Positions 30,882-34,585 of a stretch of 64,000 nucleotides of DNA are shown here, piece by piece. The notes under the pieces are model-generated. The model saw only the letters and a list, made by a program, of their open reading frames with translations, did no database searches and was not told where the DNA came from. Every line of letters starts with the position of its first letter. Position 1 is the first letter of the stretch. Made by a program: the position numbers and the translations under genes. Origin of the DNA: Fimbriimonadaceae bacterium (GTDB lineage Bacteria; Armatimonadota; Fimbriimonadia; Fimbriimonadales; Fimbriimonadaceae). The stretch lies in contig JAHBTD010000002.1 of NCBI GenBank assembly GCA_019638775.1, forward strand, positions 806,001-870,000, in the 5' to 3' direction.

Positions 30882-31540
30882 AAGATGCCCATCTCCCCTG
30901 GATTGAGTTTGTGCGTCGGGTCGAAGATCTCCTTGGCCCGCTTCATGTAGCGGATCATGGCGGGGTCGGTGATTTGGGGAATCTGGGATTGGGCGTTCGG
31001 TGATGCAAAGTCAGCAGGCGTTGCACTCAGCGAGGATGAGATCGGCTTGAGCGGATTCGTCTTCAAGATGACTTCAGCCACGACTCCGAGTGTGCCCCGA
31101 GCACCGATAAACAGCTTCTGAACGTCGTACCCCGCGACATTTTTGACGGCTCGGCTGCCGCACTTTCGAACACAGCCGTCTGCAGTAACAACCGTCATCC
31201 CCAACACCCAGTCTCGCCAAGAACCATACTCCGACTGCAAGCGATGTGGTGCATTGGTCGATAAGGCCCCACCAACCGTCGGGTCGCTCACGCCGCCGGA
31301 GATAGGCAGACACTGTCCCTTTGAAGCCAGCTCCTCTTGAAGCACTGACAGCGGCGTTCCCGCCCTTACGACGGCAACCTGATCCTCAGGAATGCAGTCG
31401 ATCAGTCCCGCATAGGCGGACATCGCTAGCACGTCTTCACCTTGCTCCTCAACATCTTGAAGGAAGCCTCGAATTCGCAGCCGATCAGCCGAAGCCACAG
31501 CCTCGACAATCCCCGTCAAGCTATCTGGACGATGGATCAC
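30878..31540 (-). CDS. glcE: Glycolate oxidase FAD-binding subunit GlcE, short form
   Basis: From the GTG that overlaps the glcD stop (GTGA) the product is 220 residues. The FAD-binding type 4 fold is clear: LPISGGVSDPTVGGALSTNA, RDWVLGMTVVTADG, KNVAGYDVQKLFIGARGTLG. It ends with FDPTHKLNPGEMG, the normal family ending. It is much shorter than the roughly 350 residues of E. coli GlcE, because the cap domain between FAD domain and tail is missing or reduced. It acts with GlcD and GlcF to oxidise glycolate or D-lactate. Confidence 0.88.
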   Translation of the reverse strand: MIHRPDSLTGIVEAVASADRLRIRGFLQDVEEQGEDVLAMSAYAGLIDCIPEDQVAVVRAGTPLSVLQEELASKGQCLPISGGVSDPTVGGALSTNAPHRLQSEYGSWRDWVLGMTVVTADGCVRKCGSRAVKNVAGYDVQKLFIGARGTLGVVAEVILKTNPLKPISSSLSATPADFASPNAQSQIPQITDPAMIRYMKRAKEIFDPTHKLNPGEMGIF

Positions 31541-33204
31541 CACGCCACCCCGCGCCAGCGCTTCTGATGCTCCACGCAGCTCTTCTGATTCGGCAGAATC
31601 TTGCACGGGTTGCACAGCATTCCGTCGTTGAAGATGCGCTTCGCCATCGCCTGCAGCTCCAAGTCCGCCGGACTGAACATCAGCGGCATCAGGTCGACCT
31701 TCTCTACGCCGATCCCGTGCTCGCCGGTGACGCTGCCTCCAAGCTCGATGCACCGCCGCACGATCACTTCCCCGGCCTCGACCACGCGCTTCACCTGGTC
31801 GGGGTCGCGGTCGTCGAAGTAAAAGCAGGGGTGAAGGTTGCCATCGCCCGCATGGAACAGGTTGGCGACGCCCAGGCCGTGCTCCTCGGCGACTTTGTAC
31901 ACAAAGTCCAGCATCTCCGGGAGCTTGGAGCGGGGGATCACGCCGTCGTGGGTGACGATGCTGGGCGCAAGCCGCCCCATCGCCCCGATGCCCTTCTTTC
32001 GGGCGGTCCAAAGCTCTTGCCGCTCGCGCTCGTCCTTGGCGATGCGGACCTCCAGCGCGCCGTTTTCCTGGCAGATTCGGGAGACGGCGGACATTTCGTT
32101 TTGGACAACATCTTCCGAATTTTGGATTTTGGATTTTGGATTTTGGATTGGATCGCCGATTGCCGATAGCTGATCTCCGATATCTACGCCCCGATCGCTG
32201 ATCGCCGATAGCTGATCGCCCCCAAAACTCCCCTCCCCCTGCGACGAAGGAGCGAGGGGGAGGGGGTTGGGGGAGGGGGTTTCCCGATGACCGATCCCTG
32301 ATCTCCGATCTCCGATATCCACACCCCGATCGCTGATCGCCGATAGCTGATCGCTACTGTCACACTCCACCAACAGCAGCGCCTCTGCGCCTTCGGGATA
32401 CTGCAGATTGAACGCGGCTTTGAGAGCTTTAAGGATCCCCTTGTCCATGATCTCCATCGCCGCTGGGAGCACCCCCTCGGCGATGATCTGCGCCACGGCC
32501 TGCGTGGCTCCGCGCACCGTCGGGAACGCGGCGAGCGCTGTCTTGACGGCTGCCGGAACGGGCGTCAGTTTCACCCAAGCCTCCGTCACGATGCCCAGCG
32601 TCCCTTCCGAACCCACGATCAGACCCAGAAAGTCATAACCCGGCCCGCCGGGGACCTCCCCGCCAAAGCGCACCACTTCCCCATTCGGCTCGACCATCGT
32701 GATGCCCAGGATGTGCTGAACCGTCACCCCATACTTCAGCGTGTGCGGCCCGCCCGAGTTCTCGGCGATATTGCCGCCGAGGGTCGAGACGGTCTGGCTG
32801 CTGGGGTCGGGGGCAAAGTGCAGGCCGTGCTCGGCGACGGCGTCGGAGATGCGCTTGTTCGCGATCCCAGCTTGGGCAAGCAGGCAGCGATTCTCGACGT
32901 CGATCTCCAGAATCTTCGTGAGCTTCTTGGTGGAGATGATCACGCCCCCCATCGCCGCCAGCGCGCCGCCGCTCAGTCCCGTGCCCGCGCCCCGCGCCGT
33001 GTAGGGGACAGAGTTTGCCACGCACCACTGCACCACCTTCTGCACCTCATCGGTGGATTCGGGAAGGACGACGACAGCCGGCTTGCTGCGGTCGACGGTG
33101 TAGGCGTCGCAGTCGTAAGCCCGCAAAGCCCCTGGCCCAGAAAGCACTTTGTGCGCTTCCAGGATGGACTCCATTCCACGGGCGATCTGCTCAGCGTCAG
33201 TCAT
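31537..33204 (-). CDS. glcD: Glycolate oxidase subunit GlcD with repeat-derived insertion
   Basis: The 555-residue flavoprotein has an FAD-binding domain (TARGAGTGLSGGAL near residue 70; GGNIAENSGGPHTLKYG near 145; GSEGTLGIVTEA) and a C-terminal oxidase domain (ANLFHAGDGNLHP, GEHGIGVEK). Between LLLVECD (about residue 281) and DVVQNEMSAV (about 363), where homologues have only a few residues, lie about 80 extra residues. They contain DQLSAISDRGVDIGD twice and NPKSKIQN. These are translated intergenic-type heptamer repeats. The frame is preserved, so the enzyme may still fold with an exposed loop. It oxidises glycolate or D-lactate. Confidence 0.92.
   Translation of the reverse strand: MTDAEQIARGMESILEAHKVLSGPGALRAYDCDAYTVDRSKPAVVVLPESTDEVQKVVQWCVANSVPYTARGAGTGLSGGALAAMGGVIISTKKLTKILEIDVENRCLLAQAGIANKRISDAVAEHGLHFAPDPSSQTVSTLGGNIAENSGGPHTLKYGVTVQHILGITMVEPNGEVVRFGGEVPGGPGYDFLGLIVGSEGTLGIVTEAWVKLTPVPAAVKTALAAFPTVRGATQAVAQIIAEGVLPAAMEIMDKGILKALKAAFNLQYPEGAEALLLVECDSSDQLSAISDRGVDIGDRRSGIGHRETPSPNPLPLAPSSQGEGSFGGDQLSAISDRGVDIGDQLSAIGDPIQNPKSKIQNSEDVVQNEMSAVSRICQENGALEVRIAKDERERQELWTARKKGIGAMGRLAPSIVTHDGVIPRSKLPEMLDFVYKVAEEHGLGVANLFHAGDGNLHPCFYFDDRDPDQVKRVVEAGEVIVRRCIELGGSVTGEHGIGVEKVDLMPLMFSPADLELQAMAKRIFNDGMLCNPCKILPNQKSCVEHQKRWRGVAW
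32118..32362. repeat. Composite repeat insertion inside glcD
   Basis: From low to high coordinate: GATTTTG heptamers (32118-32150), GATCGCC/GATAGCT heptamers (to about 32217), a GC-rich hairpin with four G5 tracts (about 32225-32281), then more GATCGCC-type heptamers. All parts except the hairpin match arrays found between genes elsewhere in the window. Confidence 0.9.
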
Positions 33205-33302
33205 CGGTTGTGGTTAGTTTAGCTTTGCATTCCAAATGCATCGCCCTTCATAGCCAACCTAAACGACGAATACGCCCTACAAGACCTAAATCCAGGCCCA
33301 CC

Positions 33303-33505
33303 AAAAAAAACGGGCGTGCTCAGCACGCCCTAGTTGCTCGTCTTTCTTGCGATCATCGACTCGGGCCGTTAAGGCCGATTCTGATCGCGGCTTTTCTGCT
33401 CAATATGCCGGGCTTTCGCCTCTCAGCCAATCGAGTCAAAAATCGCTATGTTCGGGATTACGCCCGCCTACTGAACCCGGTTCCCGCGAGTAGGACCGAC
33501 TGCGT
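33303..33505 (-). ncRNA. Candidate structured RNA ending in an intrinsic terminator
   Basis: Read on the minus strand, TTGGTC-N17-TGTACT (33540 to 33512) could be a promoter with start near 33505. About 200 nt follow, with nested pairings: CCTACT with AGTAGG, GCGAT with ATCGC enclosing GACTCG with CGAGTC, and GGCC-N5-GGCC. The region ends with a GC hairpin (GGGCGTGC/GCACGCCC, 33312-33330) and eight T. No known family was recognised; size would suit 6S RNA but motifs do not confirm it. Alternatively it is a mosaic of small palindromes like 47559-47735, or a leader of glcD. Confidence 0.4.
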
Positions 33506-33591
33506 GAAATCAGTACATTGTTTGGCAACTTTGGGACCAACCGACTACCAATGAATCGCACATGCCTGAGCAGGCCAGCGCTTTCAAGGTC

Positions 33592-33597
33592 TACAAT
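33592..33597 (+). promoter_or_regulatory. -10 box of Gfo/Idh gene (leaderless)
   Basis: TACAAT lies seven bases before the ATG at 33605, and no Shine-Dalgarno is seen. Confidence 0.5.
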
Positions 33598-33604
33598 GAG
33601 CATC

Positions 33605-34585
33605 ATGGGTTCGGTTAAGGTTGGCCTCCTCGGGGCCGGAGGCATCGGCAACGTTCACGCCCGACACTATTCCGCAATGCCCGATGTGGAACTCCACGTC
33701 TTCGATATTCACCCCGAAAAAGTCGATACCATCGCTAAAGCCCATCGGGCAATCCCCTGCTCGTCTTTCGATGATCTCATCGCTAAAGTTGATGCCGTCG
33801 ATATCTGCCTGCCGTCGAACCTGCATTACGAATTCGGGATGAAATCCATCGCAGCAGGCAAGCCGACGATGGTCGAAAAGCCGATAGCCACAACCCTCGA
33901 GCATGCCTCAGAGATGATGGAGGCGTCCGAAAAAGCGGAGGTGCCGCTCTTTGTCGGCCAAGTCGTTCGCTTCTTTCCCGAATTCCGTACCGCACACAAC
34001 CTCGTCGAAAACGGAACAGTCGGCATTCCAGCTGCAGCACGAATGCGCAGGGGCGGTGGACCTCCGCGATCCCACGCAGAGTGGTTCTTCGATCACGAGA
34101 AGTCGGGTGGAGTTCTGCTCGATCTGGCCATCCACGATTTCGATTGGCTACGCTGGACGCTTGGCGAAGTCAAGCATCTCTATTCGCGCTCGGTAGGGGC
34201 GAAGACCGGTAAAGGCCTCGACTATGCCCTCACCACTCTCACCTTCGACAGCGGCGCGGTAGCCCACACAGAGACCACCTGGATGGATCCGGGCGGATTC
34301 CGAGTCGCTCTGGAAGTGTGTGGAAGCGAAGGGATGATTGAATTTGACTCTCGACACCTGCCAACACTCCGTGTCAACACCGGCGATATCAAGGTAACCG
34401 AAGGTCCGCTCGCCCCGAAAGATGACCCTTACTACCGCGAACTCAGCGCCTTCCTTGCTGCCGTCACAAAAGGCGAACCCTTGCCGATCACGGCTTACGA
34501 CGGTTTCATGGCTCTTAGCATCAGTCTCGCCGCACTTGACTCAGCCAGAACTGGTCGCGTCGTTGCACCGGCCCGACAGATTTAG
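33605..34585 (+). CDS. Gfo/Idh/MocA-family oxidoreductase
   Basis: The 326-residue cytoplasmic protein has the Rossmann motif GLLGAGGIGNVHARHY (residues 7-22), the family Lys in MVEKPIATT (EKP, about residue 95), and the HDFDWLRW segment (His about residue 178), where the sugar-handling His usually sits. It probably oxidises or reduces a cyclic polyol or sugar with NAD(P). The substrate cannot be told from sequence. ATG 33596 is in frame but would remove the promoter spacing; 33605 starts directly before the fold. Monocistronic. Confidence 0.9.
   Translation: MGSVKVGLLGAGGIGNVHARHYSAMPDVELHVFDIHPEKVDTIAKAHRAIPCSSFDDLIAKVDAVDICLPSNLHYEFGMKSIAAGKPTMVEKPIATTLEHASEMMEASEKAEVPLFVGQVVRFFPEFRTAHNLVENGTVGIPAAARMRRGGGPPRSHAEWFFDHEKSGGVLLDLAIHDFDWLRWTLGEVKHLYSRSVGAKTGKGLDYALTTLTFDSGAVAHTETTWMDPGGFRVALEVCGSEGMIEFDSRHLPTLRVNTGDIKVTEGPLAPKDDPYYRELSAFLAAVTKGEPLPITAYDGFMALSISLAALDSARTGRVVAPARQI

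Follow-up and report, generated by a model that had tools for sequence, protein, structure and literature searches.

A candidate lineage-specific small RNA predicted at an orphan terminator between glcD and a Gfo/Idh/MocA oxidoreductase gene in a Fimbriimonadaceae bacterium

INTRODUCTION

The small RNAs that depend on Hfq to act in trans are encoded between genes, lack an open reading frame, and have hairpins that lead into a U-rich intrinsic terminator. The usual entry site for Hfq is a U8 tail lying behind a G-C-rich hairpin. Orphan terminators were among the criteria in a screen for small RNAs in Sinorhizobium meliloti, where 14 of the 18 candidates were detected (PMC2573895). The other described systems that bear on the present locus are PhrS (RF01673), the ribosomal protein L10 leader (RF00557) and 6S RNA (RF00013). 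Our literature searches turned up nothing on small RNAs of Fimbriimonas or of its phylum, and a single paper that mentions both Armatimonadetes and 6S RNA.

We have analyzed a window of 64 kb (the whole stretch of DNA, C2:806001-870000) from the 4.3-Mb genome of a member of the Fimbriimonadaceae (Armatimonadota). Within it a candidate RNA element sits where two genes diverge, glcD on the minus strand and the gene for a Gfo/Idh/MocA oxidoreductase (the Gfo/Idh gene) on the plus strand. Like the Hfq-dependent RNAs the element is intergenic and without an open reading frame, and it comprises hairpins and a U-rich intrinsic terminator in a genome that encodes Hfq (94.6 bits). It differs from them in having no recognized promoter and no homologues in the genomes searched, and as an RNA it is predicted from sequence.

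The likeness to the other systems is partial. PhrS is the best sub-threshold match in Rfam, the terminator part of the element aligning with it at the permissive level with 16.3 bits (E 0.06); this is far under the gathering score of 37 bits and the agreement is mainly that of a generic terminator, so that we do not class the element as PhrS. The L10 leader of the same genome (C1:378979-379146) likewise has a strong terminator in a divergent gap, ahead of a gene on its own strand. There is no visible sequence relation between this leader and the element, and in the present case glcD has a proximal -10-like element. The element is comparable in size to 6S RNA and might likewise form a long stem, but it matches the model at no threshold and is not conserved in the family, and we do not place it there. 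We find no antiterminator, no conserved leader and no known family that would make it a riboswitch or attenuator.

RESULTS

An orphan intrinsic terminator

The original prediction held that a strong minus-strand terminator with eight T residues lies in this gap, and this is present as described (Table 1). It is the sole terminator in the 64-kb window with at least seven T in eight, and its sequence is unique in the genome when up to three mismatches are allowed. The whole element is also single copy in the genome, which disposes of the concern that the stretch might be a multi-copy palindrome mosaic.

Table 1. Positions of the features of the element and its neighbors in the 64-kb window
Feature	Position	Strand	Remarks
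glcD, FAD-linked (glycolate) oxidase subunit	31537-33204	minus	Pfam FAD_binding_4 and FAD-oxidase_C; downstream neighbor
-10-like TAAACT at -17 of the glcD ATG (33204)	33216-33221	minus	Downstream of the orphan terminator
T8 tract, which would give the RNA its 3' end (U8 tail of the Hfq type)	33303-33310	minus	Read from the sequence; Hfq encoded
Intrinsic terminator hairpin GGGCGTGC-TGA-GCACGCCC, then G and T8 (33311-33303)	33312-33330	minus	8 bp, 7 of them G-C
Purine-rich linker AAGAAAGACGAGCAACTA, from HP2 to terminator	33331-33348	minus	Unpaired in the minimum free energy (MFE) fold; possible seed
Hairpin HP2, GCGATCAGAATCGGCC-TTAAC-GGCCCGAGTCGATGATCGC	33345-33388	minus	-19.4 kcal/mol, z -3.75; plus-strand z -3.17
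Competing long stem, GCGAUUUUUGACUCG (33446-33432) with CGAGUCGAUGAUCGC (33363-33349)	33349-33446	minus	14 of 15 pairs
Hairpin HP1, apical part GCGAAAGC	33389-33447	minus	-23.1 kcal/mol, z -4.19; plus-strand z 0
Presumed 5' part, without stable structure of its own	33448-33505	minus	z +0.24 for 33446-33510
Weak sigma-54-like site TGGTCCCAAAGTTGCC	33524-33539	minus	8 of 12 consensus letters; RNA start near 33513, conjectural
-10-like TACAAT, just before the Gfo/Idh start ATG 33605	33592-33597	plus	Read from the sequence
Gfo/Idh/MocA oxidoreductase gene	33605-34585	plus	Pfam GFO_IDH_MocA; divergent upstream neighbor

We have surveyed 2.0 Mb of this genome (C1:1-1,200,000 and C2:300,001-1,100,000) for strong terminators, calling genes with a simple gene caller. 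There are 54 on the two strands together. Of these, 34 lie no more than 80 nt downstream of a same-strand gene, and eight are inside called ORFs. Among the remaining 12, 5S rRNA and tRNA-Met precede one terminator each, one is within the Rfam L10 leader, and one lies ~165 nt behind the terminator of an rRNA operon. Two are found 134-138 nt past a gene, and four follow genes that the caller missed, namely the end of a thioredoxin-like gene, rpmF, a gene for a small secreted protein and one further ORF, the identities of the thioredoxin-like gene and rpmF being read from the translation and not from a database result. Only 33330-33312 and C1:449673-449698 are terminators in divergent gaps with nothing known before them. 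That the terminator of the element follows no adjacent gene, as had been claimed, thus stands. Almost every strong terminator in this genome ends a gene or a known RNA, and therefore a stand-alone minus-strand RNA ending at 33303 is the best reading of the locus. The survey is the main evidence for such an RNA.

The second orphan terminator, C1:449673-449698 on the minus strand, lies 86 nt upstream of the gene for a 375-aa PD40 beta-propeller protein, with a -10-like TACAAT hexamer ~80 nt before the terminator. It is a candidate for either a small RNA or an attenuator leader. Elsewhere in C1, the terminators at C1:366403, C1:367838 and C1:353131 lie close to small genes; these encode products with a common motif, DN(Q/E)IRKENP, two of which have lipoprotein-like N-termini. 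The genome also encodes a selenocysteine tRNA (C1:873986-874076; RF01852, 70.8 bits), and therefore the organism probably makes selenoproteins.

The fold of the element

On the minus strand the whole element folds with -79.1 kcal/mol and z -3.34, compared with z -1.63 on the plus strand. The structural signal is confined to the 3' 145 nt (33303-33447), comprising the hairpins HP1 and HP2 and the terminator. Each hairpin is ~4 standard deviations beyond dinucleotide shuffles in stability, with boundaries that were picked after the fold was seen. The stability of HP1 is restricted to the minus strand; that of HP2 is almost as great on the plus strand. Structure in the stretch of about 200 nt is confirmed for its 3' part and not for the 5' part, which is no more stable than its shuffles. 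In a scan with fixed windows of 120 nt the region reaches z -3.46 and ranks 14th of 1068 windows, 23 of which reach z -3; the stability of the fold is unexceptional and alone would not single out the element.

Several nested long-range pairings had also been proposed, and these correspond to the long stem of Table 1. The stem itself is real, in that 60 mononucleotide shuffles gave a maximum of 13 pairs. But it and the pair HP1 and HP2 are mutually exclusive, and at -40.8 kcal/mol it is 1.3 kcal/mol worse than the two-hairpin fold at -42.1 kcal/mol, with a pair probability of ~0.06. The claim that the element contains no ORF is upheld, the longest minus-strand ORF wholly within it being just 28 aa with a TTG start (33353-33439).

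Homologues and RNA families

Searched at the gathering level of Rfam, the whole 64-kb window yields a tRNA only, and no family matches the element; this was a check proposed with the original prediction of a new RNA. BLAST revealed no homologue in 60 relatives, all of them from other genera. Recurrent 27-nt matches to query positions 163-189 were seen in many relatives, and we rejected these as coincidence because their single recurrent context is, on the reverse strand, a prepilin N-terminal signal. A covariance model built on the single sequence found only the element itself in 85 genomes of the family and nothing in 113 genomes of the order, although a model of this kind grows less sensitive as sequences diverge and a fast-evolving relative could escape it. 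Matches of 14-17 bits in five family genomes were rejected as chance, and the sole full-length match with a real terminator proved to be the end of a gene with its terminator. Plasmid and phage records gave no match. Thus, homologues with covarying pairs, as expected of a conserved RNA family, were found in none of the 60 relatives, 85 family genomes and 113 order genomes, and among the genomes searched the element occurs in this species only.

We have also searched for 6S RNA with RF00013. The model found none in the 85 Fimbriimonadaceae genomes, and was positive in four of 14 control genomes. The 6S RNA of the family may therefore be either undetectable by the Rfam model or missing. With RF00013 negative across all 85 genomes, the lack of an annotated 6S RNA says little.

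Promoter signals and flanking genes

The plausible promoter of the original prediction could not be confirmed. On the minus strand there is no sigma-70 site for the element with at least 9 of 12 matches, and 33390-33604 has no TANNNT on that strand, against an expectation of 2.9. TTGGTC-17-TGTACT, probably the promoter that was intended, scores 5.19, less than the 5.64 that is the median of the best scores in windows of equal length. The best weight-matrix site, TTGGCT-17-CATATT, lies within HP1 and would yield an RNA of 95 nt. It is not outstanding, since among 554 windows of equal length across the 64 kb, 66 have a score as high or higher. The weak sigma-54-like site TGGTCCCAAAGTTGCC keeps the conserved GG/GC spacing, and RpoN is encoded in the genome; sites with 9 of 12 matches number 490 in 2 Mb, and therefore this poorer site is only a lead. 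Separately, C1 and C2 contain five intergenic near-consensus sigma-54 sites (11 of 12), which with the encoded RpoN form a candidate RpoN regulon.

Both flanking genes have -10-like hexamers of their own close to the start, and therefore neither gene needs the element as a core promoter. In most relatives, too, glcD has a -10-like hexamer near its start. Across the starts of 822 genes in the 2.0 Mb, TANRNT hexamers show a 2-3 fold peak between -18 and -1, which suggests widespread leaderless or very-short-leader transcription in this genome. The Gfo/Idh start is most likely the ATG at 33605 because orthologues align from there.

The relatives of glcD found by protein search are Fimbriimonadaceae and Armatimonadota records of at most 75% identity, and glcD adjoins none of 29 orthologues of the Gfo/Idh gene. 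At residues ~285-363 of glcD there is an in-frame insertion of ~79 residues with repeated peptides (QLSAISDRGVDIGD...). It is not found in relatives, whose alignments cover residues 1-284 and 364-555, and it has the appearance of small repeat elements that have inserted there.

DISCUSSION

We predict that the minus strand of the gap between glcD and the Gfo/Idh gene encodes a stand-alone small RNA specific to this lineage, and hold the chances for and against it to be evenly balanced. This is the best-supported reading, and to that extent the stand-alone RNA of the original prediction survives, supported mainly by the orphan terminator. The RNA would be ~145-210 nt in length, or ~95 nt were it to start within HP1, and would end at the terminator 33330-33303; that it is transcribed, and from where, we infer. 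The element shares with small RNAs a terminator that belongs to no gene and an absence of coding capacity. Hfq would bind the U8 tail, and the unpaired linker AAGAAAGACGAGCAACUA could serve as a seed that base pairs with mRNAs in trans.

Predicted duplexes between the linker and gene starts are mostly within the range of shuffles, and neither glcD nor the Gfo/Idh gene is a preferred target. The best duplex is with the signal-peptide region of a gene for a DUF2961 protein (C2:615210-617192), at -27.9 kcal/mol. This is just marginally beyond the shuffles and probably coincidental, and we do not take that gene as a target.

The main rival is that the terminator insulates or acts against antisense transcription, which we consider somewhat unlikely. 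The transcripts ended would be leaky or divergent minus-strand ones from the Gfo/Idh promoter region, or 5'-end antisense, and the RNA itself would be functionless; with minus-strand transcription stopped, glcD would be driven solely by its own promoter. The position of the glcD -10-like element downstream of the terminator agrees with this, as do the unstructured 5' third, the lack of conservation and the lack of a recognizable dedicated promoter. Against it stand the two stable hairpins before the terminator, one of them strand-specific. Moreover, the only other divergent-gap terminators in 2 Mb are C1:449673 and that of the L10 leader, and therefore this genome does not habitually insulate in such a way. 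The element lies on the same strand as glcD with its terminator 107 nt before that gene, and it could instead be a leader or attenuator of glcDEF, as was originally allowed, with a start near 33513, a default stop at 33303, and read-through into glcDEF upon a signal. The one identified divergent-gap terminator of the survey does belong to such a cis leader (L10, 38 nt before its gene). Yet glcD has TAAACT at -17, with a similar start-proximal hexamer in most relatives and the same TANRNT peak at gene starts across the genome. The glcD upstream regions of 29 relatives differ and none contains the element, and Rfam offers no riboswitch or leader family. Nor is there an antiterminator, the longest upstream complement to the 5' arm of the terminator being 5 nt, against 5-8 nt in shuffles. 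Given the hexamer of glcD itself, relatives that lack the element and the missing antiterminator, the conditional leader is therefore distinctly unlikely.

Two further explanations carry still less weight. An intergenic stretch in decay, in which a hairpin and a T-tract have arisen by chance, would be consistent with the lack of conservation and with a scan in which 23 of 1068 windows reach z -3, but strong terminators are too rare (54 on both strands of 2.0 Mb) and too regularly placed after a transcript for chance to be other than very improbable. That the element is a housekeeping RNA that has diverged, for instance a 6S RNA beyond the reach of the Rfam model, is extremely unlikely. The failure of RF00013 in all 85 family genomes and the rod-like shape of the long-stem alternative would accord with it; against this, homologues expected in sister genera were not found, no 6S match appears even at a permissive threshold, and the MFE structure is two hairpins and not a rod with a central bubble.

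Returning to the stand-alone small RNA, the two nearly isoenergetic folds raise the idea of a bistable, lineage-specific RNA in which a switch between them alters exposure of the seed, possibly under RpoN control and bound by Hfq. We regard this as quite improbable. If true, it would to our knowledge count as one of the first descriptions of a regulatory small RNA from Armatimonadota.

The element, if real, is ordinary in kind. Strong U-rich terminators are few in this genome, so that the orphan ones provide an efficient route to a list of candidate small RNAs and leaders, and the calibration of terminators is reusable. If the present element is expressed, it would provide a concrete test case.
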